A DNA stretch of 64,000 nt, from positions 16,760,100-16,824,099 of the forward strand of contig NC_052473.1 of assembly GCF_009730915.1 (NCBI RefSeq). The letters run 5' to 3'. The translations under genes were made by a program, and so were the position numbers. The DNA comes from Dioscorea cayenensis subsp. rotundata (taxonomy: Eukaryota; Streptophyta; Magnoliopsida; Dioscoreales; Dioscoreaceae). The notes beneath the pieces are model-generated. The model was not told where the DNA came from, did not search any database, and saw only the letters and a list, made by a program, of their open reading frames with translations. Of this stretch, positions 14,396-64,000 are shown in pieces (positions within the stretch are counted from its first letter, which is position 1; the number at the start of each line of letters is the position of its first letter).

Positions 14396-14643
14396 GAGGC
14401 AATGACGATGCCCTAATCACCTTCCAATGCGAAGGTGTGTGTGATGTCTCCATCAGTTGATGGATTCCTCTTCTTTCCTGCTCCTCTCTTCTCTCTCTAT
14501 GCAGCGATGGTGTAGTGGCTCGGATGGCTTGCTCTTCAGCAGGCAACCGCTGCTACCGTTCTCGTAGAGGGAGGGGTTGGTGTGGTGTGGGAGAAGAGGA
14601 GGGGTCTTGGTGATATCATGGATTAATGGCGAATCTGAGCCTC
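14396..14643 (+). ncRNA. Large C/D-like RNA heading the series (family 8)
   Basis: Terminal stem GAGGC (14396-14400) pairs with GCCTC (14639-14643). Box C is the variant ATGACGA (14402-14408) and box D is CTGA (14635-14638). At 248 nt it is twice the size of the other units. An internal hairpin near 14508-14562 has arms GCTTGC...GCAGGC inside GTAGTGG...CCGCTGCT. Paralogues lie at 40839-41088 and 52843-53089 (minus). This copy has the only canonical box D; the others read CCGA. Confidence 0.5.
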
Positions 14644-14806
14644 TTCTCTGTGATTCTATAAGGTTGCTCAAGCTCGGCTCATTCAGAGCCCTAACTATTT
14701 CTCTGCTTAACTACTACTAGTACTACTGCCAATGATGATGATGCTGCTGCTGCTGCTGCTGATGATGATACTTATTAATCGCAATGCTGCGCTCTTGTGT
14801 TCGCTT

Positions 14807-14921
14807 GGCTGTGATGATTTGCCCTAGAAGAGTCTCGACATCGAGTGGCGTGGCAGCTACTGCTGCAGTCCTTGATTCAGTTGTTTATCTCTGATAAAAA
14901 AAAAGGTCAGATCTGAGCCTC
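14807..14921 (+). ncRNA. Box C/D snoRNA-like unit, family 1
   Basis: Box C GTGATGA (14811-14817) follows a TTGGC stem arm; box D CTGA (14913-14916) is followed by GCCTC, giving 3 strong stem pairs. The central hairpin GGCAGC-TACT-GCTGC lies about 14848-14865. An imperfect C' (TGATAAA) precedes the candidate guide AAAAGGTCAGAT just upstream of box D. Confidence 0.65.
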
Positions 14922-14951
14922 CTCCTCCTCCTCCTCCTCCTCTTCCTCTCC

Positions 14952-14992
<41 letters not shown>

Positions 14993-14996
14993 CATA
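14922..14996. repeat. (CCT)n, (CT)n and (TA)n microsatellites
   Basis: Three adjoining simple repeats directly after the first family 1 unit. A similar arrangement (TA/GA tracts by family 1 units) is found on the minus strand at 60008-60066 and 63524-63555. Confidence 0.9.
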
Positions 14997-15165
14997 TGAT
15001 AAATGTGGGGCGAGCCACGAGCCTCAACCATGAAGTTGGGAGGGGCTTGAACTCGCGACCTTTGAACTCTTTGCTGCTACTGCTACTACTAGCATGATGA
15101 AGATGACGGTGATGATAACGATGATGTTGCCATTATAAATGCCAATGCTGCACTCTTTCTTTTGC

Positions 15166-15259
15166 GTGGCTGTGATGATTTGACATAGAAGAGTCTCAAG
15201 ATCGAGTGGCGTGGCAGCCACTGCTGCAGCCCTTGATTCAGTGTTTATCTCTGAGCCTC
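15166..15259 (+). ncRNA. Family 1 C/D unit with the guide region deleted
   Basis: Box C GTGATGA (15172-15178) and stem GTGGC/GCCTC are intact, but the 3' part reads TTATCTCTGAGCCTC. The segment between the two CTGA-like motifs of the family (TCTGATAAA...GATCTGAGCC) has dropped out, so box D (15251-15254) comes straight after the C'/D' position. The guide upstream of box D differs from its relatives, so this copy is probably altered or inactive. Confidence 0.5.
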
Positions 15260-15367
15260 TTGCTTCTTGGTTCCTCTAAAAATGATGAAGGAAAAGAAAG
15301 GAAGGCAATGCTATCAAAATAAATAAATAAATAAATAAAAAAATCATCCAAGGTGAGCACTATGGCT

Positions 15368-15509
15368 AGCTGTGATGATTTGACCTCAAAGTGTATTAGG
15401 TTTAAATGGCGGGGCAGCTTAAGGTGAGGGGTGATTCTCCATGCCGCTTCTGCAGCCATCCCTAATTCTTGTTTCGGCATTTTGCTTGATTCAAGGTCAG
15501 ATCTGAGCT
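15368..15509 (+). ncRNA. Box C/D snoRNA-like unit, family 4
   Basis: Terminal stem AGC (15368-15370) pairs with GCT (15507-15509), replacing the GGC/GCC pair of family 1: a compensatory change. Box C 15372-15378, box D 15503-15506, candidate guide TTCAAGGTCAGAT. The internal hairpin has arms ATGGCGGGGCAGC (from about 15407) and GCTTCTGCAGCCAT. Confidence 0.65.
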
Positions 15510-15667
15510 TGACATATTGCCTTCTCCTTGTCATGCTTCCACTGCTTCTTTTATTGTCTCTCTGTCTGTCTGTGTGTATGTGTGTGTGTATATATATATA
15601 TATATGTTTGTATGACATCTCTATCCTTGAGTTGTCTTCTTTGTTGCTTTCTTATCTCTTTGTAGCA

Positions 15668-15724
15668 ATGGTGAAGCAGTTTGGATGGTCTGCTTCTCTG
15701 CAGGAAACCACTGCTCCTGTTCTT
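15668..15724 (+). ncRNA. Hairpin unit related to family 8 (short form)
   Basis: ATGGTGAAGCAG...GGTCTGC-TTCTC-TGCAGGAAACCACTGCTCCTGT folds as a hairpin like that inside the family 8 RNA. ATGACATC upstream (about 15614) may be a worn box C; the expected box D region (TTAATGGTGCTCACATGCACC) has lost CTGA. Paralogues lie at 40076-40130, 44850-44904 and 61261-61316 (minus). Function uncertain. Confidence 0.4.
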
Positions 15725-15890
15725 CTGGAGATAATTGGGGCCAAAGAAGAGGGCTCTTGGTGGTAGGATGGATTAATGGTGCTCACATGCACCTCGTTTG
15801 CAGCCTTTCTGGTGGTGGTCATGTTGGTGGTGGTGTTGGTGATGAGGCTTAGTTCTCTTGCAATGGCAATGTTGTTAGCCATGTCTCAAT

Positions 15891-16012
15891 GAGGCTATGA
15901 TGATTGCCCAAATGGCCTTACAAGAGTCTCTAGATCAAGTGGCGTGGCAGCTATTGCTGCAGTCCTTGATTTAGTGTTCATCTCTGATAGAAAGGGTTAC
16001 ATCTGAGCCTCT
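15891..16012 (+). ncRNA. Box C/D snoRNA-like unit, family 2
   Basis: Stem GAGGC (15891-15895) pairs with GCCTC (16008-16012), box C ATGATGA (15897-15903), box D CTGA (16004-16007). Candidate guide is AAAGGGTTACAT after a C'-like TGATAGA. The same guide occurs in five minus-strand copies, so it has been kept through duplication. Confidence 0.7.
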
Positions 16013-16211
16013 TGTTTCTTGTTTCGTTTGAACAAAATGAAGCAAAAGAATAGAGACAATATTGTTGACAACAAGAACAAGAGCAACAAGGATAATAATA
16101 ATAATGATAATAATAATAAGTCAAATGAGGTCAGCATTAGATTTCAGGCCAGAAGAAGGTTTGCTTATCTGCAAGCCCTATAAGTTTTCCTAGTTTATGA
16201 CTTCATTTTCT

Positions 16212-16356
16212 GAGGTTGTGATGATTTGTCCTCAAGTTTCGGGTTTAAAATGGCGTGGCAGCCCTGGTGACCTGCAAATCCACAGGTCACCACTGCAGCC
16301 ATCTTTGATTCTGGTTCTTGAATTGTGTTTGATGAAAAGGACTGAATCTGAACCTC
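16212..16356 (+). ncRNA. Box C/D snoRNA-like unit, family 3, with a long perfect hairpin
   Basis: Stem GAGGT (16212-16216) pairs with ACCTC (16352-16356), a compensatory swap relative to GAGGC/GCCTC. Box C GTGATGA 16218-16224, box D 16348-16351. A perfect C' TGATGA (16330-16335) lies before the guide AAAAGGACTGAAT. Between C and C' is a long hairpin: TGGTGACCTG pairs perfectly with CAGGTCACCA, extended by ATGGC..GGCAG and CTGCAGCCAT. Confidence 0.7.
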
Positions 16357-16405
16357 TCTCTAGTCCCTCTCATAAGGAACTGATTGCAACCAAAGCTAAA
16401 AAAGG

Positions 16406-16627: not shown

Positions 16628-17164
16628 GCTAAAAAAGGCATCGAATGATGACAAATGATATTGTAAAGGAAGAGAATTAACACTCCCATCCCTAATTAGA
16701 GGTTGAGGGTTTGAGGAGGGTTGTCCATGTCGCTCACAAACGAAACAATGAGGAAGGGAAGGGGAAGTATTTTCTATTGCCTGGTTGCATGAAGGGAACA
16801 AGATGCGTCTTCAAATGAATAAATAATGATTGGAGTCTACGTTTTTACTAGATGACAACAATAACACAATAAAGACTACATGATTCAATCTTAAACATAA
16901 AGCTTTATAAGGGTATGTAGGCAAAACATAAATTTTATCTGGTTTATATATATATAGATAGATAGATATATGCAAGTAAACCACTTTAGTGGTTTGCATA
17001 GTCCAATATGTAAAGGCACCGTGTATGTTTATAATGTCGACTCAGGTGAAAATAACAATTCAAAGCTGGTGCATGCATTTCATTCCATCCATTTCATTTT
17101 TCCAAACATGACTTTTGTGTTCCTTCATCTTCATCTTATTTCTTGTCTCCATTTATGGTGTGAA

Positions 17165-17413
17165 GGGGCTGTGATGATTCCCCTGAAACCAACTTTGTGT
17201 TGGATTGAAGGAAAAGAGAAAGTCCATGGCTTTTTTACTTGTCACCCCTGAAAAATAGTGAACTTACCAAACACCCCCTTAATCTGTAGAAATATGAAAA
17301 ACCTGAAATTGGAATGGAGATGGATGGCGAGGCACATGAAGGCTGGCTAGAGTTTGCTGGCTACCATCTGCAGCCATTATCATCTTATTGGTAGCAGGGT
17401 GAAACTGAGCCTC
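17165..17413 (+). ncRNA. Box C/D-like unit, family 5, with internal insertion
   Basis: Stem GGGGC/GCCTC surrounds box C GTGATGA (17171-17177) and box D CTGA (17405-17408). Compared with the 147-nt paralogue at 43101-43247, about 110 bp (near 17229-17338, starting CTTTTTTACTTGTCACCCC) has been added between CCATGG and CTGGCTAG. The hairpin GGCTGGCTAG...CTGGCTACC and CTGCAGCCAT arm remain. Probably no longer functional. Confidence 0.5.
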
Positions 17414-17429
17414 TTTTTCATTTTCTGGT

Positions 17430-35140: not shown

Positions 35141-35223
35141 TTGATAGGTGAATGCAGAACTCATAAAGGGCAATGGAAAGAGGCTCAGCAACAACAATTT
35201 CTTAAACAGAGTAATCAAACTTT

Positions 35224-35362
35224 AAGGCTCAGATCTGACCTTTAATCAGATACACAAAGACAAGCATGAGGAATGGCTGCAGATGTCACTGGAGAAAAAT
35301 CCCTGACTTAAGCTGCCCCGTCATTTAATCCACAGGCTCTGAGGTCAAATCATCACAGCTTC
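35224..35362 (-). ncRNA. Box C/D snoRNA-like unit, family 4
   Basis: Box C GTGATGA (35350-35356) and box D CTGA (35229-35232) with stem GAAGC/GCCTT (one mismatch). Candidate guide TTAAAGGTCAGAT. The hairpin keeps CTGCAGCCAT but the opposite arm has changed (ATGACGGGGCAGC). Moderately diverged from 15368-15509. Confidence 0.55.
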
Positions 35363-35727
35363 CAATGTAATCTCATCATCCACAATATGCATAATTTCTA
35401 CTCATAAGTAATCCAACCTATACGGATAATTTAAGAAAGAATAGATTCAGATGAGAACGCAGCTGTAACCCAACTGTTCTCACATGCCTTGCATTTAAGG
35501 TCTCTCATCTTGCAAAATACACCGTGGCTCCCCTCTGGGTGGAACAGTAGTTTCTCCTCGGAGAGGTTACATGACAAAGGGATTTATTCCCTGAGAGATC
35601 TTCAAGCCACACTAACTGGTGCACTTATGTACCTACATGCCCCTTAACATCCCTTAAGTGGGAGGCACTCAATCAATGCCCACCTTAGCTTTGATTGCCA
35701 TCAGTTTCTTCTGAGAAGGACTAGAGA

Positions 35728-35874
35728 GAGGTTCAGATCCAGTCCTTTTTATCAAACACAATGCACAAACCAGAATCAAAGATGGCTGCAGTGGTGGCCG
35801 AGAGATTTGCAGGTCACACTGGGTCTGCCACGCCATTTTAATCCTGAAACTTGAGGACAAATCATCACTACCTC
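35728..35874 (-). ncRNA. Box C/D snoRNA-like unit, family 3
   Basis: Stem GAGGT/ACCTC (35870-35874 with 35728-35732), box C 35862-35868, box D 35733-35736. Guide AAAAAGGACTGGAT. The hairpin arm ATGGCGTGGCAG (35833-35844) pairs with CTGCAGCCAT; the inner stem is less perfect than in the plus-strand copy. Confidence 0.65.
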
Positions 35875-35988
35875 AGGAAAATAAAGTCATAAACTAGGGA
35901 AACTTTATAGGGCTTGCAGGCAACTAAACCCCCTTTTGACCTCAAATCCAATTCCTGACTTGCTGCAATGGACATTTGGATTATTATT

Positions 35989-36019
<31 letters not shown>

Positions 36020-36077
36020 TTGCTTTGTGTTGTTCTTGTTCTCAACCATCATTGTGTTCAAAAGAAACAAGAAACAA

Positions 36078-36199
36078 GAGGCTCAGATGTAACCCTTTCT
36101 ATCAGAGACAAACACTAAATCAAGGGCTACAGCAGTAGCTGCCAGGCCACTTGATCTTGAGACTCTTGTAAGGCCAATTGGGCAAATCATCACAGCCTC
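36078..36199 (-). ncRNA. Box C/D snoRNA-like unit, family 2 (tandem copy a)
   Basis: Stem GAGGC/GCCTC perfect, box C 36187-36193, box D 36083-36086, guide AAAGGGTTACAT. Almost identical to the unit 254 bp away at 36332-36453, including the downstream CATGTCTCAGCGAGG, so the two arose by a recent local duplication. Confidence 0.7.
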
Positions 36200-36331
36200 G
36201 CTGAGACATGACCAACAACATTGTTGTTGTTGTAGTTGCTGCTGCTGCTGCTGCTGTGGCTGCTTTTTCTTTTTGTTGTTCTTGTTATTGTTGTCAACCT
36301 TCATTGTGTTCAAAAGAAAAACAAGAAACAA

Positions 36332-36453
36332 GAGGCTCAGATGTAACCCTTTCTATCAGAGACAAACACTAAATCAAGGGCTACAGCAATAGCTGCCAAG
36401 CCACTTGATCTTGAGACTCTTGTAAGGCCAATTGGGCGAATCATCACAGCCTC
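36332..36453 (-). ncRNA. Box C/D snoRNA-like unit, family 2 (tandem copy b)
   Basis: Same architecture and guide as 36078-36199: box C 36441-36447, box D 36337-36340, stem GAGGC/GCCTC. A few substitutions lie in the hairpin (TAGCTATTGC for TAGCTACTGC) while boxes and stem are unchanged. Confidence 0.7.
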
Positions 36454-36562
36454 GCTAAGACATGGCAAATAATATTGCCATAGCAAGAGAACTAAGCCTC
36501 ATCACCACCACCACCACCACCGATGTGACCGCATAGCACTTCATTTACGCTTCGAAAAAGAA

Positions 36563-37560: not shown

Positions 37561-37709
37561 AATCTGGACATAAAAGGAATAAGAGAAGGAAATTGTTCCC
37601 TTTTGTGAATTGAATGGTTAAGGCACTCACTTACGCCAAATTGAGGTCACAATCAGCAAAGTAGACTGGCAGGCAGCAGCAGCAGCAACTTCAACAGCTT
37701 CAAACATAA

Positions 37710-40130: not shown

Positions 40131-40163
40131 GGCTCTCTCTATTTCTCTCTCTCTCTCTCTAGA

Positions 40164-40622: not shown

Positions 40623-40730
40623 AGGCTCAAATCTTACCATAATTATCAGAGATAAACACTGAATCAAGGACTGCAGCAGTAGCTGCCACGCCACTTGATC
40701 TCGAGTCTGATCTAGCATAAATCACAGCCA
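40623..40730 (-). pseudogene. Degenerate family 1 C/D unit
   Basis: The hairpin TGGCGTGGCAGC-TACT-GCTGCAGTCC is kept, but box D reads TTGA (GGCTCAAAT in plus sense) and box C has lost three bases (AAATCACAGCC). Probably inactive. Confidence 0.5.
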
Positions 40731-40838
40731 AGCGGACACGAGCATAGCATCTCCATTAATAAGCATCATCATGATCATCATTGGTAGCAATAGTACCAGA
40801 GGGTTCATAGGGCAAGGGTTCAAATCCCTCATAGAGAA

Positions 40839-41088
40839 GAGGCTCGGATTCGCCATTGATCCAGTATACCACAAGACCCCTCCTCTTCTCCCGCACCACA
40901 CCCACCCTCTAGAAGAACGGGAGCAGCGGTTGCCTGCTGAAGAGCAGGCCATCCGAGCCGCTACACCATTGCTACAGAAAGAGAAGAGAGGAGCAGAAAA
41001 GAAGAGGAATCAATCAACGATTGAGATATCACACACCTTCACACGCTGTGATCGCATTCGAAGGTGATTAGGGCATCGTCATTGCCTC
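40839..41088 (-). ncRNA. Family 8 large C/D-like RNA
   Basis: Stem GAGGC (41084-41088) pairs with GCCTC (40839-40843). Box C is ATGACGA (41076-41082), box D is CCGA instead of CTGA. Hairpin ATGGTGTAGCGGCTCGGATGGCCTGC...GCAGGCAACCGCTGCTCCCGTTCT. The leader continues upstream to about 41360. Confidence 0.5.
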
Positions 41089-41370
41089 CAAATCGACATA
41101 AAAGAAAGAGAAGCAAAAGCAGCAACAACACAAGCAACAATGATGCAAGTGAGAATGGGAATGCGAAGAGAGAGAGAATAGCGTAGCGCCATGAGATGAG
41201 GAGGAATCGCAAAGCCTGAAGAGAAGAGAGAAGAGAGAGCAGTGAAGGAGAAGAAGGTGGCATAGCATTCGGACTGGCAACCTTTTTTCCACAGTGCTCA
41301 ATCGCTCTTCGTCTCGTCTTTTCATAGTGCATCCTCTTGGAAATTGTTTTGGTACTTAAAGAAAACATTT
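41089..41370 (-). promoter_or_regulatory. Leader and weak TATA of the second minus-strand series
   Basis: Homologous to 14112-14395 and 53090-53343. The TATA position reads TTTAAGTACC (41351-41360), so the promoter may be weak or dead. AAAAGACGAGA and GCGCCATGAGATGAGGAGGAATC (plus sense) are the most conserved parts. Confidence 0.4.
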
Positions 41371-43060: not shown

Positions 43061-43100
43061 TGTGTTGCCTCCTAGAATGAAACTCAGAGGGAAATGGAAA

Positions 43101-43247
43101 GAGGCTCAGTTTCATTCTGTTATCAAGAAGATGATAATGGCTACAGATGGTAGCCAGCAAAGTCTAGCCAGCCTTCCATGGACTTTCTCTTTTCCTTCAA
43201 GCCAAGCACAAGCACAAGTTGGTTTCTGGGGAAATCATCACAGCCTC
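43101..43247 (-). ncRNA. Box C/D snoRNA-like unit, family 5 (intact)
   Basis: Stem GAGGC/GCCTC perfect, box C 43235-43241, box D 43106-43109, guide ACAGAATGAAA. Hairpin GGCTGGCTAG...GCTGGCTACC with TGTAGCCAT in place of TGCAGCCAT. It lacks the ~110-bp insert of the plus-strand relative, so this is the reference form of the family. Confidence 0.65.
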
Positions 43248-44140
43248 TTGAGACATGAATGGAGACAAAGAAAGATGAAAATGAAGGAACACCAAAGTCG
43301 TGTTTGGAACAATGGATGCAAATGGAACGCATGTACCAGCCTTGAGTTGCTATTAACTTGAGGCAAAATTATAAACATGCATGATACTTCCACTTATATA
43401 TACATACACCCATTAAAATTTCCATTTGCATATATACATACCCTTATAAAACTCATAATAAGAGGCAAACGTGAGACAAATGACTCATCTAAAAATGGCT
43501 GCAGGATCACAACCTGCCATGTCCATTGTTGTAAAGTAGTCAATCGAGGCAGGGTTTAGTTCATGAATATATACAGGCCTAGTTTGGATATATGCTGATA
43601 AAATGCTTTTTCCAGTTTGGGAGGATTTTTTTTTCCCAGTAACTTAAGGGCTGGTTTGTATTCATTTTTTCTTCTCTCAGCAGTACTTAAAAAGACAGGC
43701 AAATCTGGGGAAAACACCCAAACACACCCAAAAAGCTTGTTTCAAAAAGCAGTATAAGCACTTTCACATGAGAATCTAAAAGGCTCCTCAAACGTAAAAT
43801 TCTTTTTTGAATATGGTGGAGAAGCCGCTCACATCAACAAATGGTATGAGAGAGAGTGACTCCTTCAAGCTCTCACTTAGTATGGGAAAGTGTTAACACC
43901 CTTCTAATCCGAAGATGTCTAAATGGTAAAATTCAAGCAGCTGCAGCAACAACAATTTCTTAAACAGTTTCCCTTCTCTTCTTCTCATTGTTTCATTTGT
44001 GAGGAATATCAACAAGCCTCCTCAAACCCTAAACCTCTAATTAGGGAGGGGAGTGCTATTGAGTTCCCTTATAATTTCATTTGTCATCAACAGATACCTT
44101 AGCTTTGATTGCCACCAGTTCCTTCTGAGAGGAACAAATA

Positions 44141-44297
44141 GAGGTTCAGATTCAGTCCTTTTTATCTAACACAATTCAAAAAGCCAACCAGAATCAAAGA
44201 TGGCTGCAGCAGAGGCCTGCAGAGTTGCAGGTCACCAGGGCTGCCACGCCATTTTAAACCTGAAAGTTGAAACTTGAGGACGAATCATCACTACCTC
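44141..44297 (-). ncRNA. Box C/D snoRNA-like unit, family 3
   Basis: Stem GAGGT/ACCTC, box C 44285-44291, box D 44146-44149, guide AAAAGGACTGAAT. Very close to 39459-39610; a small duplication (AAAAGCCAACCAG) lengthens the D' side. Confidence 0.7.
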
Positions 44298-44490
44298 AAA
44301 AAAATGAAGTCAGAAACTTGTTAAACTTTATAGGGCTTGCAAATAAGCAAACCCACTTCCAACCTCAAATCTAATTCTGACATCATTTGGATTATTATTA
44401 TTATTATCATTGTTGTTGTCGTCAATCTTGTTGTTGACAATATTGTCTATGTTCTTTTACTTGATTGCGTTCGGAAGAAACAAGAAACAA

Positions 44491-44689
44491 GAGGCTCAGA
44501 TGTAACCCTTTCTATCAGAGATAAACACTCAATCAAGGGCTGCAGCAGTAGCTGCCAAGCCACTTGATCAAGAGACTCTTGTAAGGTCATTTGGGCTGTT
44601 GGGTATATAGTCCCACATCGGTTGAGCCACCATATAGGGCCCACTAATAAAAAATATAAAATCTAACATGGGCAAATCATCACAGCCTC
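44491..44689 (-). ncRNA. Family 2 C/D unit interrupted by a solo LTR
   Basis: Box D 44496-44499, guide AAAGGGTTACAT, box C 44677-44683 and stem GAGGC/GCCTC are all intact. A 72-bp LTR remnant (44597-44668) lies between box C and the hairpin. Whether the enlarged RNA still folds is unclear. Confidence 0.55.
44597..44668 (+). mobile_element. Solo LTR remnant of the TRIM family
   Basis: TGTTGGGTATATAGTCCCACATCGG...AAAATCTAACA matches both ends of the TRIM LTR at 37927-38089 with the middle deleted. It is flanked by the perfect 5-bp repeat TGGGC (44592-44596, 44669-44673). Confidence 0.85.
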
Positions 44690-44849
44690 ACTGAGACATG
44701 GCCAACACCAATGTCAGCGCAAGATAACTAAGCCTCACCACCAACATGACCACCACCAGCAGAAAAGGCAGCAAACGAGGTGCATGTGAGCAACCATTAA
44801 TCTATCATACCACCAATATCCTCTTCTTTGGCCACAATTATCTCCAGAA

Positions 44850-44904
44850 GAACAGGAGCAGTGGTTTCCTGCAGAGAAGCAGGCCATCCAAACTGCTTCA
44901 CCAT
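44850..44904 (-). ncRNA. Short family 8-type hairpin
   Basis: ATGGTGAAGCAGTTTGGATGG...GCAGGAAACCACTGCTCCTGTTCT, close to the plus-strand copy at 15668. Flanked by family 2 units as there, showing the conserved order of the series. Confidence 0.4.
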
Positions 44905-45279
44905 TGCTACAAAGAGATAAGGAACAAAGAAGAAGACTCAAGGATAGAGATGTCATACAAACATATACATTTACATACACATAAATAGACACATACACAG
45001 AGACACAGAGAGAGAGGCCACTCACATTAGAAGGATATCAACTCTTTCCCTTGCAAAGTGAGAGAGAAGCAGTGGAAGCATGACAAGGAAAAGGCAGCAT
45101 GGCACTACAAGTTGATATAGAATCACAGATCTTGGAGAGGACAGAGAAGGAAAGAAGAGGGCAGAACTATGAGACTACCAACCCTATCTCTCTCTAGATA
45201 TATATATGTTGCTCTCCCTGAATCCCTTCCACCCTCATCCTCCTGCACACGATATATTCAACTTCTACACAAAACAAGA

Positions 45280-45407
45280 GAGGTTCAGATCCAATCATCC
45301 TTTTTTATCAAAAATAATTGAGAAACAAGAATCAAAGATGGCTGCAGTGGTGGCCTGTAGATTTGCAACACACCAAGCTATCCCGCCATTTTAATCATCA
45401 CTACCTC
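45280..45407 (-). ncRNA. Family 3 variant C/D unit
   Basis: Stem GAGGT/ACCTC, box C 45395-45401, box D 45085 series position 45285-45288-like TCAG (plus sense), guide GGATGATTGGAT. About 23 bases between box C and the hairpin are missing relative to 40164-40314, so box C is almost directly next to ATGGCGGGATAGC. Confidence 0.55.
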
Positions 45408-45599
45408 AAGGAAAAATGAGGACAAACTTTGCTTGAATTTAACATTCAACGTGACTAACTCACTTAAACAGAGATAATTTGAATAGGGGACATGATAACA
45501 GGGAAAATTTTTTCAATTCAGATGCAAAAATGGCAGATTTCAGGAAGGTATATGCAAATAACCCTTTTCTTCAGGTGAAGGGTTATAGAATAAGAAGAT

Positions 45600-46820: not shown

Positions 46821-47319
46821 ACAAGGCAATAACAGCAATCACCCCTTTAATAGGGCATAGAAGCAATTCCCACAAATAAATAAATAAATAACGTTGAAAG
46901 AGATCACCTTGCATTGTTTGTAAAGCCAGCTGAGAAAAGGTAAGGTAAGCATAACTGTCTACAAACTCAAACTTATAATTTTTAATTGCTAAAATTTCCT
47001 CATGATAATAGATTTATAATAAAAAAAGAATTACTTAGAGCTCTCCCCAAAATGGGAATTTACTTGTCCTAATAGATTTTTTATCTTAAGATATGCTTAC
47101 CATATAAATTGATTATTGCTTAGAAAGACACCCAACATGTAGCTTGATCAATTCTTTTATCCTTATTGTTCAGCCAATAAATCCAAAAGTGTACCACTAT
47201 CATTGTTGACTACTGCTGATTATCCTATCTTCAGCTCAAGAATTGACACAAATCATTTTGGCGTCCAAGCTGGTTGTAAACATAGGAACTTCTGATTGAA
47301 AAACAGTAATTAATATAAT

Positions 47320-47504
47320 GGAGGCTCAGAATCACCAACTAAATACAGCTAACAAGCTGAACATACTCCAATGGCTGCAAACACTTGCCTCGCCATCTTT
47401 TGAGATCACAGTGCATACAGTACATACATAAGGGTTTAGGGTTAGGGCTTAGGGCACAAATGTATTTCCCATTCAACTTTTCAACCAGTATCATCACAGC
47501 CTCC
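47320..47504 (-). ncRNA. Box C/D snoRNA-like unit, family 6
   Basis: Six-pair stem GGAGGC/GCCTCC, box C 47491-47497, box D 47326-47329, guide TTGGTGATT. The hairpin is short (ATGGCGAGGCAAG...TTGCAGCCAT). On the minus strand the unit contains GCCCTAACCCTAAACCC, a telomere-like tract, between box C and hairpin. Confidence 0.6.
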
Positions 47505-49369: not shown

Positions 49370-49533
49370 GATATTAAATAATACTAACATACTGACAACT
49401 CTTAGCAACATATGGCTGCAGGTCAACACAACCCGCCCCGATCATTAGAAGATGAAAATATGGAAGTAATTGTAAGGCTCAGAACCACCCTTCTATATCA
49501 GTCATACATTGGTCATTATGACAAAGGATAGAA

Positions 49534-49565
<32 letters not shown>

Positions 49566-49660
49566 AGAAGAAGAAGAAAAAGAAAATGAAGAGCCAACAT
49601 ACTGACATCTCTTAGCAACATATGGCTGCAGGTCAACACAACCCGCCCCGCCATAATTCG
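49370..49660 (-). other. Duplicated hairpin pair
   Basis: CATATGGCTGCAGGTCAACACAACCCGCCCCG occurs at about 49410 and 49619; with the following GCCAT in the second copy it folds on the minus strand as ATGGCGGGGCGGGTTG...TGCAGCCAT. An (AAT)n tract separates the copies. Confidence 0.4.
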
Positions 49661-49863
49661 CATAGGTTTGTTCATCACAGCCCAGGACACAAGGATTTAA
49701 ACATATTTAAGTCCTATAGAAGGCTTCTACAACAATAAAATATGATTCATTCAATCCAGAAAGAATGACAGAATGTCGACTGCAACTTCCAACTGTTACT
49801 TCCAGTGGTAGTGAAATAACAAACAGCTGACAAGTGGCACTTGGCAGTTGCACCACTCCTAGG

Positions 49864-50320: not shown

Positions 50321-50373
50321 CGCAGGGGCAGCAGCAATAACAACAACAACAACTTCAACAACTTCAAACGTCA

Positions 50374-50514
50374 AGCTCAGATCTGACCTTGAATCAAACA
50401 TAATGCTGAAACAAGTATTAGAGATGGCTGCAGAAGCGGGCATGCAGAATCAACCCCACCTTAGCTGCCCTGCCATTTAAACCCAACACTCTTTGACCTC
50501 AAATCATCACAGCT
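50374..50514 (-). ncRNA. Box C/D snoRNA-like unit, family 4
   Basis: Stem AGC/GCT, box C 50504-50510, box D 50377-50380, guide TTCAAGGTCAGAT identical to the plus-strand family 4 unit. Hairpin ATGGCAGGGCAGC...GCTTCTGCAGCCAT. Confidence 0.65.
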
Positions 50515-50649
50515 GACTATAGTACTCTCCTCCAACACAATGTGCATGATTTTTGTCCAGAAACATGAAATTTTAAGTAATTTCATTTTTCCAAAGACAT
50601 GTGCGTGCGACCCAAGAGCTGAAATCAAACTTGATATTATCTTATTTTT

Positions 50650-51140: not shown

Positions 51141-51432
51141 TATCATACACTTTTCACTCATGACAGACCACTGTGGAAGCAAAAAAATTAATCTCACCTT
51201 TTCTCTAAAAGGTTATCAATTTAGGAATACAATTTTCTTCCTAAAAAGTCACATAGCAGATGAGAAGATAAATAATATGCGTGCAATTATTAAAGGTCAG
51301 AAAATTTTCACCACTGAAGATTTCATGGAGATCTATGAGAAAAAAACACGTTTCATTATTTTGCCTATTTTCCACTAATCCAAACACATCACTTTTTTGC
51401 CACGCTTTACATGTACTGAAAAGAAGAAAGCT

Positions 51433-51784
51433 GAGGCTCAGATCCACCCATTTCATCACATTAATACAAAATAAGAACCAAATATGGCTACAGCAGCGAT
51501 CAGCCCTGCCATTTCAATTTTCAAATCTTGTTTCCATGATCCAAACAACCTAAATTTTGGTTTCTAAGATGCATAGCCAAGGCCAAAGCCCACAGAACTA
51601 ATTTCAGCCAAATGCATATTAGGCCCAATTAAACACAACAGCTTGAGCTGATAGCTCGTTAGGGACAAACTAATAAATTCATATTGATAAGTACCAAATT
51701 TAATGATGGGAGATCATTAAACACCACAAAAAAGTTGTCATGCCATTTGAACATAGGAATTCAAGGGTGAATCATCACTGCCTT
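51433..51784 (-). ncRNA. Extra-long C/D-like unit, family 7
   Basis: Box C GTGATGA (51772-51778) with arm AAGGC, box D CTGA (51438-51441) with GCCTC. They are 330 nt apart, so either a large RNA or two pieces joined by insertion. Hairpin ATGGCAGGGCTGATCGCTGCTGTAGCCAT sits near box D. A paralogue is at 58755-59080. Confidence 0.4.
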
Positions 51785-51899
51785 AAAAGACTAATAATTG
51801 AATTAAGAGACCACAAAACAATAAAAAACAGGACAAACTGAACTCCATGCTTTCTTAAGAAAACGGATAATATCAGAGTCATTAATAATTTCCTCAAAG

Positions 51900-52000: not shown

Positions 52001-52303
52001 TTGACAAGCCTCTCGCTTCAACCAATATTGTGAGAAGGAGTTCATCCCTCAACCTCTCACTTGGTCTTAATGTGAATGTGGTCTTCACACTCTTTCAGAA
52101 CAAGAACAATTACGAAACAATGCAAGAAAATAAAGCATGTGAAAGGACTTGATATCTCACTCTTCCGATTCATTGCAACCAAGGAGCTGTTTCCAGCCAT
52201 GGACAAACACATCACATATGGTTTTATTTATTTATTTATTTTGATAGCATTGCCTTTTTTTTCTTCTTTGCCTTCCATCATTTTCAGAGGAACCAAGAGG
52301 CAA

Positions 52304-52420
52304 GAGGCTCAGATCTGACTTTTTTTTTTAATCAGAAATAAACACTGAATCAAGGGCTGCAGCAATAGCTGCCACGCCACCCAATCTTGAGGCCCTTCTA
52401 TGTCAAATCATCACAGCCAC
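52304..52420 (-). ncRNA. Box C/D snoRNA-like unit, family 1
   Basis: Box C 52408-52414, box D 52309-52312, stem GTGGC/GCCTC, guide AAAAAAAGTCAGAT. Hairpin GTGGCGTGGCAGC-TATT-GCTGCAGCCC. Confidence 0.65.
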
Positions 52421-52449
52421 GCGAAGACAAGAGCGTAGCATTGCCATTA

Positions 52450-52594
52450 ACAAGCATCATTGTCATCAATTCTTTTTATTTGTTGTGGCTAAATGCTTCT
52501 TGATGTTTAAAATGACAGATAAAAAAGGAACATGGATTTGTGACAAATAAAAAGGAACAGAGGGAGTAATTAATCCTTATAATGCGGAGAAAGT
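52450..52594. mobile_element. MITE remnant beside family 1
   Basis: AAAAAGGAACAGAGGGAGTAATTAATCC is the reverse of the frequent plant MITE end CTCCCTCTGTTCC. Related pieces (ACTCCCTTCAATC...) lie at 59945-60005 and 63465-63525 next to family 1 units. Confidence 0.45.
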
Positions 52595-52694
52595 ACCTTT
52601 TTGTTATCAGAGATAAAAATTGAATCAAGGACTGCAGCAGTAGCTGCCACGCCACTCGATCTCTCGACTCTTTCTAGGGCAAATCATCACAGCC
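52595..52694 (-). pseudogene. Family 1 unit truncated at box D
   Basis: Box C (52684-52690) and the hairpin TGGCGTGGCAGC-TACT-GCTGCAG are intact. The MITE remnant replaces the box D end after TTATCTCTGATAACAAAAAGGTA. Confidence 0.5.
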
Positions 52695-52842
52695 AAGAGA
52701 ACACAGAGCGCAGCATTGCGATTAATAAGTATCAATATCAGTATCAGCATCATTGGCAGTAATACTGGAAGTAGTAAAAGCAAAGAAACAGTTAGGCCTC
52801 TGAACGAGCCGAGCTTAAGCAACCTCGTAGAATCACAGAGAA

Positions 52843-53089
52843 GAGGCTCGGATTCGCCATTAATCCATGATACCACCAAGACCCCTCCTCTTCTCCCACA
52901 CCACACCAACCCCTCCCTCTACGAGAACGGGAGCAGCGGTTGCCTGCTGAGGAGCAGGCCATCCGAGCCGCTACACCATCGCTACATAGACAGAGAAGAG
53001 AGGAGCAAGAAAGAAGAGGAATCGATCAACGATGGAGACATCACACACACCTTCGCATTGGAAGGTGATTAGGACATCGTCATTGCCTC
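52843..53089 (-). ncRNA. Family 8 large C/D-like RNA, first of its series
   Basis: Stem GAGGC (53085-53089) with GCCTC (52843-52847), box C ATGACGA (53077-53083), box D position CCGA. Hairpin ATGGTGTAGCGGCTCGGATGGCCTGC-TCCTC-AGCAGGCAACCGCTGCTCCCGTTCTCG near 52920-52980. It directly follows the best preserved promoter of the cluster. Confidence 0.5.
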
Positions 53090-53343
53090 CAAAGCGAGAC
53101 AAGAGAAAGAGAAGCAGAAGCAGCAATGGGAATGGAAAGAGGAAAGAGGAAAGAGAAGAGCATGGCGCCATGAGATGAGGAGGAATCACAGAAAGGTTGA
53201 AGAGAAGAGAGAAGAGAGAGGAGAGAGCGGCGAAGGAGAAGAGGGCAGAGCTTTGGGACTACCAACCCTTTTCCCACAGCGCTCTCTCTGATGCTCTTCA
53301 TCTCGTCTTTTGAGAGTCACTCACTCATTGCTTGGTATTTATA
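53090..53343 (-). promoter_or_regulatory. TATA box and leader of the best preserved series
   Basis: TATAAATA lies at 53336-53343 on the minus strand, and the leader AAAAGACGAGATGAAGAGC...GGAAAAGGGTTGGTAG runs about 250 bp to the first unit. The same leader stands before the other family 8 units. GGTAGGGCCAGTG about 35 bp upstream may be a degenerate Site II element. Confidence 0.5.
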
Positions 53344-54925: not shown

Positions 54926-55432
54926 ATCTAATGTCGACCTCATTATTATCATCATCATCAGACGTAACCCTTTCTATCAGAGAAGTAATTACCCACTTTA
55001 ATAAGGCATAGAAGCAATTTCCACAAATAAATAAATAAATAAATAACGTTCAAAGAGATCGTCTACTTTGCATTATTTATAAAGCCTATAACTGTCTCCA
55101 AACTCAAGCTTGTAATGTTTAACTGCTAAAATATCTTTGTGCTAATACATTTATAATGAAAAAAGAATTACTTACAGCTCTCACCATAATGAAAATTTAC
55201 ATGTGCTAATAGACTTTTTATCTTAATGTATGCTTACCATATAAATTAATCATTGCTTAGAAAGACACCTAACATTCGGCCAATAAATCCAAAAGTGTAC
55301 CAATATCATCACTGACTTCTGCTGATTATCCTATCCTTAGCTCAAGAATTGACACAATCATTTTGGCGACCCAAGCTGTTGGTAAGCATAGGAACTTTTT
55401 ATTGAAAAACAATAACTAATAGTTGATATAAC

Positions 55433-55613
55433 GGAGGCTCAGAATCACCAACTAAATACAGCTAACAAGCTGAACATACTCCAATGGCTGCAAACACTTG
55501 CCTCGCCATCTTTTGAGAGATCACAATGCATACAGTACATACATAAGGGTTTAGGGTGTAGTGCACAAACGTATTTCCCATTAAACTTTTCGGCCAATAT
55601 CATCACAGCCTCC
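55433..55613 (-). ncRNA. Box C/D snoRNA-like unit, family 6
   Basis: Six-pair stem GGAGGC/GCCTCC, box C 55600-55606, box D 55439-55442, guide TTGGTGATT. Nearly the same as 47320-47504, but the telomere-like tract is shortened to ACCCTAAACCC. The duplicated block continues on both sides (to about 55020 and 55930). Confidence 0.6.
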
Positions 55614-58500: not shown

Positions 58501-58754
58501 GAAGCGAAAATTTAATTTAGCCTTTTCTCTAAACTCTCACTAATTTAATAATACAATTTTCTTCCTAGAAAAGTCACCTAACAGAGGATAAGATAAATAA
58601 AGATATATGCAATTATTAAAGGTCAGAATACTGGCACAACTGAAGATTTCATGGAGATTTATAAAATAACACTCTTCATTATTTTGCCTACTTTCCACTA
58701 ATCCAAACACATCACTTATTTGCCACACTTCAATATACTATGAAGAAGAAAACC

Positions 58755-59080
58755 AAGGCTCAGAGCCACCCTTTCATAACATTATGACCGCTGCAATGAT
58801 CAGGCCCCCCGCAATTTCTTTTTCAATTCTTGTTTCCATGATCCAAACACAACCTAAATTTTGCCTTCTCAGATACATAGCAAAGGCCAAGACCCGCAGA
58901 ACTCAGTTCAGCCAAATGTATATTAGGCCCATTTAAACACAATAGCTTAAGCTGAAAGAGCGAGAGACACAGACTATGTTGATATGTACCAAATTTAATG
59001 ATAGGGAGATTATTAAATACCACAACAAAGTTGCCATGCCATTTGAACACAGGAAGTCAAGGGTGAATCATCACTGCCTC
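58755..59080 (-). ncRNA. Extra-long C/D-like unit, family 7
   Basis: Stem GAGGC/GCCTT (one wobble), box C 59068-59074, box D 58760-58763, 326 nt in all. Homologous to 51433-51784 throughout. The hairpin near box D is degraded (GCAGCGGTCATA). Confidence 0.4.
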
Positions 59081-59697
59081 AACAGACAAAGAATAGAATT
59101 GAGAGACCACAAATCAATAAAAAACAGGACAAACTGAACCTCATGCTTTCTTAAGAAATTGGATAATATCAGAGTCAATGTTAATTTCCTCAAAGAAAAA
59201 GGAACATTGATCTAACCTTTTTATCAAAGAGAACGCAGAATCAATGAATGGCTGCAGCAATAACCACCAAAGCCGCCTCGCCAACTGATCCTGGCCTGGG
59301 ACTCCTCATGAACAAACTTCACACTTTTTTTAAAAATAAGATTGGCAAGACGCTCACCTTAACCAATGTTGAGAGGGAGTTAAACCCCTCAACCTCTCAC
59401 TTGCCAAGGGGAAAAGTTACCATCATCCTACTGTGAATGTGGTCTTCACAGCTTTTACAACAAGAACAATTATTAAACAATGCAAAAAAAAATAAAGCAT
59501 GCGCAAGGACTTGATATCTCACTCTTCCGATTCATAGCAACTAAGGGGCTGTTTCCAGCCATGGGCAAACACATCACAGACCACACACACACCCATAATT
59601 GAAGTTCGGGCCATGGATGGTTTTATTTATTTATTTATTTTGATAGCATTGCCCTCTTTTCTTTTCCTTCATCATTTTCAGAGGAACCAATAAGCAA

Positions 59698-59814
59698 AAG
59701 GCTCAGATCTGACCTTTTTTTTTAATCAGAGATGAACACTGAATCAAGGGCTGCAGCAGTATCTGCCACGCCACTCGATCTTGACGCTCTTCTATGTCAA
59801 ATCATCACAGCCAC
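59698..59814 (-). ncRNA. Box C/D snoRNA-like unit, family 1
   Basis: Box C 59802-59808, box D 59703-59706, stem GTGGC/GCCTT, guide AAAAAAAGGTCAGAT. Hairpin TGGCGTGGCAGATACTGCTGCAGCCC has one mismatch in its inner stem. Confidence 0.65.
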
Positions 59815-60062
59815 GCGAAGACAAGAGTGCAGCAATGCCATCATCATCATGGTTGTAGTAATAGTAGTAGCAGAGAGTTCAAAGGTCACGAGTTCAAACC
59901 CCTCCCAACTTAATGATTGAGTTTCATTGCGAGCCCCACATTTATCATATACTCCCTTCAATCTTTTTACTTGTTCCTTTTAATTAATTCTTTTGATGCG
60001 GAGAAAGTATATATATATATATAGTAATATAGATAGAGCGAGAGGAGAAAGAGGTGGAGGAG

Positions 60063-60176
60063 GAGGCTCAGATCTGACCTTTTTTTATCAGAAATAAAAA
60101 CTAAATCAAGGACTGCAGCAGTAGCTCCCATGCCACTCGATCTCGAAACTCTTCTAAGGCAAATCATCACAGCCAA
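60063..60176 (-). ncRNA. Box C/D snoRNA-like unit, family 1
   Basis: Box C 60164-60170, box D 60068-60071, stem TTGGC/GCCTC, guide AAAAAAAGGTCAGAT. The hairpin arm reads ATGGGAGCTACTGCTGCAG, weakening the stem. Confidence 0.6.
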
Positions 60177-60275
60177 GCAAACACAAGAGCGCGGCATTGC
60201 AATTAATAAGTATCATCATCAGCATCATCATCATTGGCAATAAAGCTGGTAGTAGTAGCAGCAAAGAAACAGGAA

Positions 60276-60475
60276 GAGGCTTGGATTCGCCATTAATCCA
60301 TGGTACCACCAGACCCCTCCTTTTCTCCCACACCATCCCCTCCCTCTAGCAGAACGGGAGCATCGGTTGCCTGCTGAGGAACTGGCCATCCGAGCCGCTA
60401 CACCATTGCTACATAGAGAGAGAAGAAAGCAACAGCAAAGAAGACGAATCGATCAACGATGGAGATATCACACAA
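60276..60475 (-). pseudogene. Family 8 RNA truncated by an insertion
   Basis: GCCTC (60276-60280) with box D position CCAA, and the hairpin TAGCGGCTCGGATGGCCAGTTCCTCAGCAGGCAACCGATGC are present. The box C end is replaced after GATATCACACAATGG by the segment with the PPR fragment. Confidence 0.5.
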
Positions 60476-60859: not shown

Positions 60860-60979
60860 AATAAGCAAACCCATCTTCTAACCTCATTTGGATTCTTATT
60901 GTTGTTGTTCTTGTTCTTGATGTTGCCAATATTGTCTATGTTCTTTTGCTTGATTGTGTTCGAAAGAAACAAGAAACAA

Positions 60980-61101
60980 GAGACTCAGATGTAACCCTTT
61001 CTATCAGAGATAAACACTCAATCAAAGGCTGCAGCAGTAGCTGCCAAGCCACTTGATCTTGAGACTCTTTTAAGTCCAATTGGGCAAATCATCATAGTCT
61101 T
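60980..61101 (-). ncRNA. Family 2 C/D unit with covarying stem
   Basis: Stem AAGAC/GTCTC: the second pair G-C of the family has become A-U through changes on both arms. Box C ATGATGA (61089-61095), box D 60985-60988, guide AAAGGGTTACAT. Confidence 0.7.
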
Positions 61102-61260
61102 GCCAAAACATGGCCAACAACATTGCCATCGCAAGAGAACTAGGCCTCACCACCACCACCGCCAGCAGAGAAAATAAGATTGCAAATGAGGTGCACATGA
61201 GCACAATAAATCTATCGTACCACTGAAATCCCTCTTCTTTGGTCCCAATTATCTCCATAA

Positions 61261-61316
61261 GAACAAGAGCAGTGGTTGCCTGCAGAGAAGCAGGCCATCC
61301 AAACTGCTTCACCATG
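61261..61316 (-). ncRNA. Short family 8-type hairpin
   Basis: ATGGTGAAGCAGTTTGGATGGCCTGC-TTCTC-TGCAGGCAACCACTGCTC; the inner stem is a perfect GCCTGC/GCAGGC. Upstream (61380-61460, plus) are long (TA)n, (CA)n and (GA)n tracts. Confidence 0.4.
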
Positions 61317-61384
61317 GCTACAAAGAGATAATAAAGGAACAAAGAAGACGACTAAAGGATAGAGATTTTACATAGATATATGTA

Positions 61385-61460: not shown

Positions 61461-61534
61461 TATCTCCCTGAATCTCTTCCACTCTCATCCTCCTGCACAC
61501 AAGAGGAACAATAAATCCCTGGATATATTCAACT

Positions 61535-61690
61535 TCTACACAAAACTACCAATCCTCCTCTTTTTATCAAACATACTTGAGAAACAAGTATCAAAGATGG
61601 CTGCAGTGGTCGCCTTTAGATTTGCAGCACACCAAGCTGCCCTGCCATTTTAATCCTCGCGACACTTGTAGATGAATCATCACTATCTCA
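61535..61690 (-). pseudogene. Family 3 unit without box D
   Basis: Box C (61677-61683) and the hairpin ATGGCAGGGCAGCTTGGTG...GCGACCACTGCAGCCAT are present; the expected GGATCTGAACCTC is replaced by sequence ending AACTACCAATCC, deleting box D. Confidence 0.5.
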
Positions 61691-61979
61691 AAGAAAAATA
61701 AGGACAAACTTTGCTTCAATATAACATTGAAAGTGACTAGCTCAATTAAACTCGGATCATTTGAATAGGAGACATGATAACAGAGAAGATATTTGCAATT
61801 CAGATGCAAGAATGGCAGATTTCAGGTATATGCAACTAACCCTTCATTTTCTCTATTTTACCGTCACTCAGAACACACCACTGATTTCATTCGTTCTTGT
61901 TTTGAAATCAGACAACGCATAAATAAGCAAAAACAAAAAAAACTATAAAGAAGTCACCGCCCCAATAACTAAACAATAA

Positions 61980-62030
61980 GACATTTGACTTCCATGGAGG
62001 AGGAGCTCAAGAGTTCGACTCCTCACTGCA
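61980..62030 (+). other. tRNA-like tract, not a tRNA gene
   Basis: CTCAAGAGTTCGACTCCTCACTGC resembles a T-arm and 3' acceptor, but the D-arm and anticodon stem cannot be formed. Probably a SINE relic. Confidence 0.3.
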
Positions 62031-62189
62031 TGATTGAGGCGATATAATAATAAAAAACAAAACAACAGCAATTAAGAATCTCATGACATAAGAATGTAAG
62101 AGAAACAATTAAAAAGGAATAGACATTCACAGTTGATTGGAAGATGCTCTTATTTGAAGAGCGGAGGCTCCTCAGGTGAAGCCTTAAAG

Positions 62190-62840
62190 AATAAGAAGAT
62201 ATCGACCTAAATGTGTTTAGTAGAAAACTGGACGAAATGATATGTCTAATCTTGGTCTATCTGATCTTTTGGCTATTGATAGAATACGGTGGAAGGAAAA
62301 AAAAATTCATGTAACCAACAAGTTAGGGCAAAGACCATGTTGTGGTTATTGTAATCTAATAATATCAGGCAGTCTATCGAGAGCATGTTGGTGAAAAACA
62401 CAACCTAAATTTTAGCTTCTAAGATGCATAGCAAAGGCCAAGACCGCCAAAACTCAGTTCGGCCAAATGAATATTAGTCCCATTTAAACACAATAGCTTA
62501 AGCTGATAGCGCGAGAGACACAGATTATGTTGATAAGTACCAAATTTATTGATGGGAGATTTTCAAATACCACAACAAAGTTGCCATGCCATTCGAACAC
62601 AGGAATTCAAGGGTGAATCATCTCAACAAACAAAGAATAGAATTGAGAGACCACAAATCAATAAAAAACAGGACAAACTGAACTTCATGCTTTCTTAAGA
62701 AATTGGATAATATCAGAGTCAATGTTAATTTCCTCAAAGAAAAAGGAACATTGATCTAACCATTTTATCAAAGAGAACGCAGAATCAATGACTGGTGCAG
62801 CAATAACAACCAAAGCCACCTTGCCAATTTATCCTGTGAC
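62190..62840. other. LINE tail and family 7 remnants
   Basis: LINE tail at 62215-62360 (IRWKEKIHVTNKLGQRPCCGYC). From 62400 the sequence follows the family 7 unit (box C damaged at 62617: GAATCATCTCAAC), then the box-D-less remnant seen at 51900 and 59190. Confidence 0.4.
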
Positions 62841-63164
62841 TCTTCATGAACAAACTTAACCAATGTTGTGAGAGGGAGTTGATCCCTCAACCACTCAATT
62901 GGCAAGGGAAAGAGTTACCATCATTCTAATGTGAATGTGGTTTTCACACGCTATTAGAATAAGAACAATTATTAAACAATGCAAGAAAATAAAGCATGCG
63001 AGAGGACTTGATATCATAGCAACCAAGGGGCTGTTACCAGCCATGGGCAAACACATCACAGACCACACACACACATAATTGAAGTCCGGGCCTTGGATAG
63101 TTTTATTTATTTATTTTGATAGCATTGCCCTCTTTTCTTTTCCTTCACCATTTTCAGAGGAACC

Positions 63165-63279
63165 AAGGCTCAGATCTGACATTTTTTTTTAATCAAATAA
63201 ACACTGAATCAAGGGCTGCAGCAGTAGCTGCCACGCCACTCGATCTTGAGGCTCTTCTATGTCAAATCATCACAGCCAC
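63165..63279 (-). ncRNA. Box C/D snoRNA-like unit, family 1
   Basis: Box C 63267-63273, box D 63170-63173, stem GTGGC/GCCTT, guide AAAAAAATGTCAGAT. The C'-like TGATAAA of the family is lost (TTTATTTGATTAAAA). Hairpin intact. Confidence 0.65.
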
Positions 63280-63555
63280 GAGAAGACAAGAGTGCAGCAT
63301 TGCCATTAACAAGCATCATCATCCTCGTCGTCGTCGTCATCATCATCATCATCATGGTTGTAGTAATAGTAGTAGTAGTAGCAGCAGAGAGTTCAAAGGT
63401 CACGAGTTCAAACCCCTCCCAACTTAATGGTTAAGGTTCATTGTGAGCCCCACATTTATCTTATACGCCCTTCAGTCCTTTTTACTTGTTCCTTATAATT
63501 AATTCTTTTGACGCGGATAAAGTATATATATATAGAGAGAGAGAGAGGTGTGGAG

Positions 63556-63669
63556 AAGGCTCAGATCTGACCTTTTTTTATCAGAAATAAAAACTGAATC
63601 AAGGACTGCAGCAGTAGCTGCCACGCCACTCGATCTCGAGACTCTTCTAGGCCAAATCATCACAGCCAA
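63556..63669 (-). ncRNA. Box C/D snoRNA-like unit, family 1
   Basis: Box C 63657-63663, box D 63561-63564, stem TTGGC/GCCTT, guide AAAAAAAGGTCAGAT. It follows the family 8 unit at the window edge, as 14807 follows 14396 on the plus strand. Confidence 0.65.
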
Positions 63670-63812
63670 GCGTATACAAGAGCCCGGCATTGCAATTAAT
63701 AATTATCATCATCATCATCATCATTAGCAATAGTCCTGGTAGTAGTAGCAGCAAAGAAACAGTTAGGGCTCTGAATGAGCGAGCTTGAGCAACCTCATAG
63801 AATCACAGAGAA

Positions 63813-64000
63813 GAGGCTCGGATTCACCATTAATCCATGGTACCACAAAGATCCCCCCTCTTCTCCCACACCATCCCCTCCCTCTAGCAGAACGGGAGCA
63901 GCGGTTGCCTGCTGAGGAACAGGCCATCCGAGCTACTACACCATTGCTACATAGAGAGAGAAGAGAGGAGCAGCAAAGAAGAGGAATCGATCAACGATGG
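63813..64000 (-). ncRNA. Family 8 RNA, cut by the window end
   Basis: GCCTC (63813-63817), box D position CCGA, and the hairpin TAGTAGCTCGGATGGCCTGTTCCTCAGCAGGCAACCGCTGCTCCCGTTC are inside; box C would lie beyond position 64000. A further series therefore starts outside the window. Confidence 0.45.

Follow-up and report, generated by a model that had tools for sequence, protein, structure and literature searches.

A recurrent series of box C/D-like units in Dioscorea cayenensis subsp. rotundata and its possible origin as an amplified polycistron of orphan RNAs

We analysed a 64,000-nt stretch of the Dioscorea cayenensis subsp. rotundata genome (the window; C3:16760100-16824099, where C3 is contig NC_052473.1), which carries an array of units resembling box C/D small nucleolar RNAs (snoRNAs). 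The genome searched comprised 584 Mb in 2249 contigs. Units were detected by a finder that combined TGATGA, the core TG[CT]AG[CT]C, CTGA[AG], and ends able to pair. Of the 47 units found, 28 belong to the window and 19 to 228 kb of nearby C3 sequence (loci L009-L031); a unit at window position 58753 was added manually, giving 48 units overall and 29 in the window. Six of the window units lie on the forward strand (14.8-17.4 kb) and 23 on the reverse strand (35.2-63.7 kb), which agrees with the first-pass annotation of this stretch, where about 25 C/D-like units on two strands had been proposed.

The finder returned no unit from window positions 1-14803 and 17416-35221, or from 16 of the 20 neighbouring 10-kb loci L009-L028, which served as a control on real sequence. 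Exact matches to the core pattern GGCGTGGCAGCNNNNGCTGCAG numbered 18 genome-wide, and all 18 were inside C3:16.52-16.86 Mb; the reversed control of this pattern gave no match genome-wide. The presence of boxes C and D in 48 of 48 units is circular because both are required by the finder. Pairing was also used in the choice of box D, and seven of the 48 units contain a second internal CTGA[AG].

Classification by BLAST arranged the elements into a recurrent series, HEAD-X1-Ia-Ib-V-IIb-U49-III/VI-IIc-X2-I'-IIa-IV, which recurs about a dozen times with losses and some rearrangement. Matches to X1 on C3 comprised 12 near full-length sequences and one fragment, indicating about a dozen copies of a polycistron. 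As distinct elements recur in series, what has been amplified is a polycistron whose members are diverged paralogues. The same series was found at C3:16.521-16.530 (+) and 16.652-16.643 (-), with a second IIb in the expected place of III. At these places, C3:16520683-16529600 (+) and 16642700-16652254 (-), a whole polycistron copy is present as a near-identical inverted duplication, the two lying about 115 kb apart.

The fullest copy runs from 53.3 to 43.1 kb of the window on the reverse strand. It consists of a HEAD (53045..53327) with CTATAAATACC directly upstream, an X1 element (52786..53045), a decayed Ia copy without box D (52579..52697), Ib (52302..52421), V with a length of 355 nt (51431..51785), IIb (50370..50517), the less well resolved U49 element (49479..49686; GGGC, GTGATGA ... 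CTGAGCC), III (47319..47504), IIc with a deletion 3' of box C (45278..45408), X2 (44736..44924), I' (44489..44690), IIa (44139..44298), and a shorter IV-type unit (43099..43248). The I' unit contains a 77-nt insert directly 3' of box C with a target-like repeat, GCCCA, at its edges, which is probably a small transposable element.

The forward-strand copy (14.15-17.4 kb) lacks V, U49, III, and IIc. Its HEAD (14150..14440) has CAATAAATACC about 35 nt ahead of the homology start and TGGGCC at about -268 and -176, and it is followed by an X1 element with a splice-acceptor-like start, a core-related hairpin, and weak C/D boxes (14480..14650), Ia (14804..14923), Ib with a 3' deletion (15165..15261), IIb (15365..15513), X2 (15650..15800), I' (15890..16013), IIa (16211..16358), and IV (17164..17415). 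The copy starting at 41.3 kb on the reverse strand comprises a HEAD without TATAAATA at the expected place (41052..41324), X1 (40829..41033), a decayed family I copy with both boxes damaged (40620..40732), IIc (40162..40315), X2 (39962..40134), I' (39793..39916), and IIa (39457..39611). Up to this point the series order is kept, and then the copy continues as IIb-IV-I'-I'-IIa-IIb, including IIb (37706..37854), two I' units (36330..36454 and 36076..36200), IIa (35726..35875), and an IIb-related unit (35222..35363); thus, the element order is not absolute. The remaining elements on the reverse strand are III (55432..55613), the manually added V (58753..59081), Ib (59696..59815), Ia (60061..60177), X1 (60269..60472), I' (60978..61102), X2 (61148..61343), an IIc copy that has box C and has lost box D (61541..61690), Ib (63163..63280), Ia (63554..63670), and an X1 element reaching the window end (63757..64000).

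Six heads were examined. CTATAAATACC was present in four, some 30-40 nt upstream of the homology start, and of the other two, one had CAATAAATACC and one had neither CTATAAATACC nor CAATAAATACC; TATA-like heads therefore amounted to four of six, or five of six when CAATAAATACC was counted. TGGGCC or AGCCCA was located within 350 nt of three of the six heads. We infer that the head of each series copy acts as a promoter. A promoter of the RNA polymerase III/U3 type was rejected, as its upstream sequence element TCCCACATCG (at most one mismatch) was found six times, all on the forward strand, opposite to the reverse-strand units.

The onset of X1 follows a pyrimidine-rich stretch ending in TGTAG or TGCAG (14500-14510, 40990-41030, 53000-53045, and other X1 starts), and AAGGTGTGTG lies some 75-90 nt ahead of this onset in many copies. 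The sequence ahead of X1 looks like a short intron. A protein-coding repeat was rejected for both X elements: the third codon after ATG was a stop in 12 of 12 aligned X1 copies, and two of seven X2 copies carried a 7-nt frame-breaking insert. No single frame was open across all eight heads examined for coding, and a frame ending in ...LWRQ or ...LWRP was open in five of them; a short peptide might still be encoded there.

All 48 units fit the C/D kink-turn, that is, a stem, one base, RUGAUGA opposite CUGA, and a second stem. Ten named pairs were counted on the 40 distinct end composites that the 48 units gave (400 cells). The paired cells amounted to 86.8%, compared with a shuffled mean of 81.9, and cells with both sides changed numbered 22, compared with 6.4; neither value was reached in 500 shuffles, which overstate significance because the rows are paralogues. 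Two-sided change was seen in five pairs, a weaker result that 22 of the 500 shuffles reached. Each slid register paired worse than the true register.

For the terminal stem alone, 84.5% of the cells were paired, with two-sided change in four of the five pairs. The last pair was C-G in 31 rows, U-A in eight, and U-G in one, and the third was G-C in 34 rows and A-U in three. The outer pairs were weaker, with the A-U pair missing in 17 of the 40 rows. When partners were swapped among 11 clusters, 15 of 20000 permutations were as good as the true partners. The compensatory terminal stems claimed in the first-pass annotation are thus borne out by the pair count, the shuffles, and the swapped partners, and all the examples that it named are present: GAGGT/ACCTC at 16211, 39457, and 44139, AGC/GCT at 15365, 37706, and 50370, GGAGGC/GCCTCC at 47319 and 55432, and AAGAC/GTCTC at 60978, where the outermost A-C is unpaired and the change is GAC/GTC. 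RNAalifold by itself did not find the terminal stem of family II.

A second helix runs on directly inside the C/D motif, such as AUUUGACCU with AGGUCAGAU in the units at 35222 and 15365. Like the terminal stem, its first pairs covaried in the 40 composites, and own arms paired better than swapped arms in nine of 13 subfamilies. Pairing as good as that of the own arms was obtained in 3 of 20000 permutations over 11 clusters, in 17 of 50000 over 13 subfamilies (45 of the 48 units, three with damaged arms or box D being omitted), and in 62 of 50000 over the eight most distinct subfamilies. In subfamilies with a supported inner helix, the segment preceding box D, which is the usual methylation-guide site, is paired.

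Many units also have in common the hairpin AUGGC-GNG-GCAG...CUGC-A-GCCAU. In 10 units of family II, this central hairpin was the top-scoring motif of its kind, with 0 or 1 of 40 shuffles of each as good; in the other 31 units tested, 1 to 35 of 40 shuffles were as good, and seven long units were left unshuffled. In family III, GCAA/UUGC replaces GCAG/CUGC, which is a compensated G-C to A-U change. Folding energies ranged from z -0.41 to -4.65, and seven of 12 units were at z -2 or below. The inner helix and the common hairpin had been absent from the first-pass annotation, which had also not noted that many copies are decayed and that further ones lie on other chromosomes, as described below.

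The Rfam search suggested in the first-pass annotation gave no family at the gathering threshold in the window and 15 loci, and none of the U3 and U8 models reached threshold there. The best sub-threshold snoRNA scores were SCARNA7 (27.3 of 65), GlsR10 (23.2 of 75), snoZ178 (28 of 100), and SNORD52 (23.5 of 45). Scores for microRNA (miRNA) models were also weak and all sub-threshold, which argues against the array being a source of small interfering RNAs (siRNAs) or miRNAs, where hairpins and inverted duplications would give dicer products. Such a source would be compatible with hairpins 100-150 nt long and with the inverted duplicates at C3:16.521-16.530 and 16.643-16.652 Mb, which are near-identical; however, the stems are mismatched and the box conservation would be unexplained, and we consider it very improbable.

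As the segment before box D is helically paired with the segment after box C in most subfamilies, box D-guided methylation looks unlikely. The units could be ordinary guides diverged past Rfam recognition, in which opening of the helix that precedes box D would let box D or a D'-like box direct 2'-O-methylation of ribosomal or small nuclear RNA. Boxes C and D are canonical, several subfamilies have a D'-like [CT]TGAT 3' of the core, and plant snoRNAs are usually polycistronic, as stated in a passage of PMC11028025. However, the segment before box D varies among subfamilies together with its pairing partner. Moreover, the longest exact complement to a 1.6-kb 18S-like locus, perhaps a damaged copy, was at most 8 nt for the 20 nt before box D in 10 of 10 subfamily representatives and 9 nt upstream of the D'-like boxes. 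We regard ordinary guides as improbable.

A further reading is a new plant class of non-guide box C/D RNA, where the kink-turn only builds and protects the particle and a helix would hold the former guide strand fast. The work would then be done by the conserved hairpin with its 3-by-1 internal loop (GNG facing A), and a whole polycistron of such RNAs, specialised into about a dozen subfamilies, would have expanded until a single region of 340 kb held over 70 units that can still be recognised. We put this forward as a tentative and rather doubtful proposal.

That the units are RNAs of the C/D type finds good support at the sequence level. Our preferred reading, to which a probability of about one half can be assigned, is that a polycistron transcribed by RNA polymerase II (Pol II) has been amplified and that its products are orphan box C/D-type RNAs, most of them non-guide. 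In its favour are the units with boxes and pairing ends that are missing from 16 neighbouring loci, the covarying terminal stem and inner helix, the folding of seven of 12 units, the conservation of units above that of spacers and flanks, the recurrent series with CTATAAATACC ahead of four of six heads, and the central hairpin. Transcription would start at the promoter-like head of each polycistron copy and yield a long non-coding precursor with about a dozen related hairpins. The terminal stem and C/D kink-turn of each hairpin would bind SNU13/15.5K, followed by NOP56, NOP58, and fibrillarin, and these proteins would shield the hairpins while the precursor between units decays, leaving RNAs of about 100-350 nt. 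The central conserved hairpin may function as a working surface for protein or RNA, like that of non-guide C/D RNAs.

Alternatively, the units may stay in the long non-coding RNA as cis-acting modules, with the kink-turn hairpins as landing places for SNU13-type proteins. The variable middle of the units, which reach 355 nt, a single series behind a single head, and the exon-like starts of the X elements after a splice acceptor would all be compatible with this, but each unit has a sharp terminal stem at a constant distance to both boxes, which is typical of excised C/D RNAs, and cis-acting modules seem rather unlikely.

Several results weigh against the Pol II polycistron. The site II mark TGGGCY was not enriched in the window (25 compared with 42 expected), and neither was the telo-box (six compared with 3.1 expected, none of the six at a head). 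The permutation tests take paralogues as exchangeable. The own arms of the inner helix failed to beat swapped arms in subfamilies I', IIc, IIc2, and IV2, and were no better than swapped arms in the shorter IV-type unit at 43099..43248; the central-hairpin test was non-significant for most family I units; and the remaining five of the 12 units folded no better than about z -1.6. Finally, many copies have lost a box. As the core hairpin was misplaced when all subfamilies were aligned jointly with MAFFT, families I and II were modelled separately; over the window and L009-L031, hits of their covariance models at E values of at most 1 numbered 73 and 95, respectively. Merging at E of at most 0.01 and omitting a partial R2 hit (window 47860-47915) left 77 hits, for which exact boxes were not required, all confined to the window, L012, L024-L026, and L029-L031. 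Box C was present in 55 and box D in 56, and 33 of the 77 were without one or both.

The missing boxes would be expected of a relic, that is, a formerly functional cluster drifting after neutral segmental duplication, with copies moved to other chromosomes inside larger segments. The 77-nt insert in one unit is also in line with this, as are the damaged copies with common flanks elsewhere in the genome. On the other hand, both boxes were kept in 44 of the 77 hits, 31 of which also had at least four of five terminal pairs, and the stems carry compensatory changes. Units and X2 were also more conserved than spacers: among seven copies of one module, the pairwise identity was 0.92 for I', 0.87 for II, and 0.91 for X2, compared with 0.71-0.82 for spacers. 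We consider a relic unlikely. Unit III (47319..47504) has an intact relative with 89% identity at C8:4002171-4002354, in which 83 of 86 aligned sites of the 3' half and 83 of 98 of the 5' half are identical to those on C3; the two flanks agree at 153 of 189 and 153 of 183 sites. The unit at C3:16655906 has a decayed box D.

Searches outside C3 with single units found further places numbering at least eight for family II, at least six for family I, and at least 10 for family III, and with X1 at least 16, all of these genome-wide counts being lower bounds. By eye, 18 of 24 off-C3 copies of families I-III were inspected, and both boxes were intact in only two, in L045 on C9, where the terminal stem is poor, and in L046 on C8; a box was missing in the other 16. 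Family II copies in L032-L038 (C10, C17, C994, C18, C9, and C19) have lost box C and have common flanks on both sides, and so look as if they were carried within larger segments; retroposed snoRNAs were rejected because of these common flanks. At C8:3997484-4002354 (L046 and L047), an intact type III unit lies about 5 kb from a decayed one, and this locus is perhaps a second polycistron.

Elsewhere in the window, Pfam domains beside the array were those of glycosyl hydrolase 18 (4200-5453, -), lipocalin (25070-25648, +), and JAB/MPN (29576-31710, +); by eye, we take the latter two to resemble temperature-induced lipocalin and COP9 signalosome subunit 5, respectively. Two arms of about 334 nt with 97.6% identity (5657-5988 and 6949-7282) form an inverted repeat, inside which smaller tandem repeats occur; this is a foldback element. 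Inverted copies with 78% identity at 16408-16625 and 28124-28352 belong to a dispersed-looking element unrelated to the units, and positions of about 12151-13150 read N.

No literature on an array of this kind was found among openly licensed PMC papers with limited search terms. Plant snoRNAs are mostly located in intergenic clusters sharing one promoter, according to a passage of PMC11028025, and the part of PMC5122169 consulted describes plant clusters as comprising two to four families. The expansion beyond the size of an ordinary plant cluster that the first-pass annotation had claimed is supported, as the units here are far more numerous. In excerpts of PMC11028025, large C/D tandem repeats are described as eutherian innovations, and other understudied genomes are said to possibly hold more; a plant case, if true, would be an expansion outside placental mammals by another route. 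The array would then offer many natural variants for reading the function of an orphan C/D family. Even with partly dead copies, the locus gives a detailed picture of how snoRNA-like genes arise and decay.

In U3 and U8, which are non-guide C/D RNAs, an extended internal helix lies behind the C/D motif, and the function resides elsewhere in the RNA. The C3 units share with them a C/D motif backed by an internal helix and differ in the central hairpin. New structured plant RNAs, among them a multicopy Brassicaceae motif, are reported in part of PMC12218528; compared by its description only, this Brassica-trans motif is likewise a structured plant RNA that occurs in many copies and in no constant gene context. 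Similar to the plant polycistronic C/D clusters, such as U15a-U15b-snoR7b-snoR18b in the portion of PMC5122169 seen, the C3 locus has different units in series on one strand, without a protein-coding host, behind what is apparently one Pol II-type head, the promoter role of which is inferred. Unlike in those clusters, the C3 units are all interrelated, without an Rfam match, with a mostly paired guide site, and many more per gene, and there are about a dozen copies of the gene. The resemblance to the tandem orphan arrays of mammals noted in the first-pass annotation applies to scale and does not extend to layout. SNORD115/SNORD116, SNORD113/114, and the C3 locus all bring together tens of orphan C/D RNAs, among which decayed or variant copies are numerous; however, the mammalian arrays have one snoRNA per repeated intron of a long non-coding host RNA, whereas what recurs on C3 is an entire series of distinct units. 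With about a dozen different elements per repeat, in recurrent order, rather than one snoRNA family, the layout is unlike that of SNORD115/116. If the units do form a new non-guide class, the locus may be regarded as a plant counterpart of the mammalian imprinted arrays in scale, built on a different plan.

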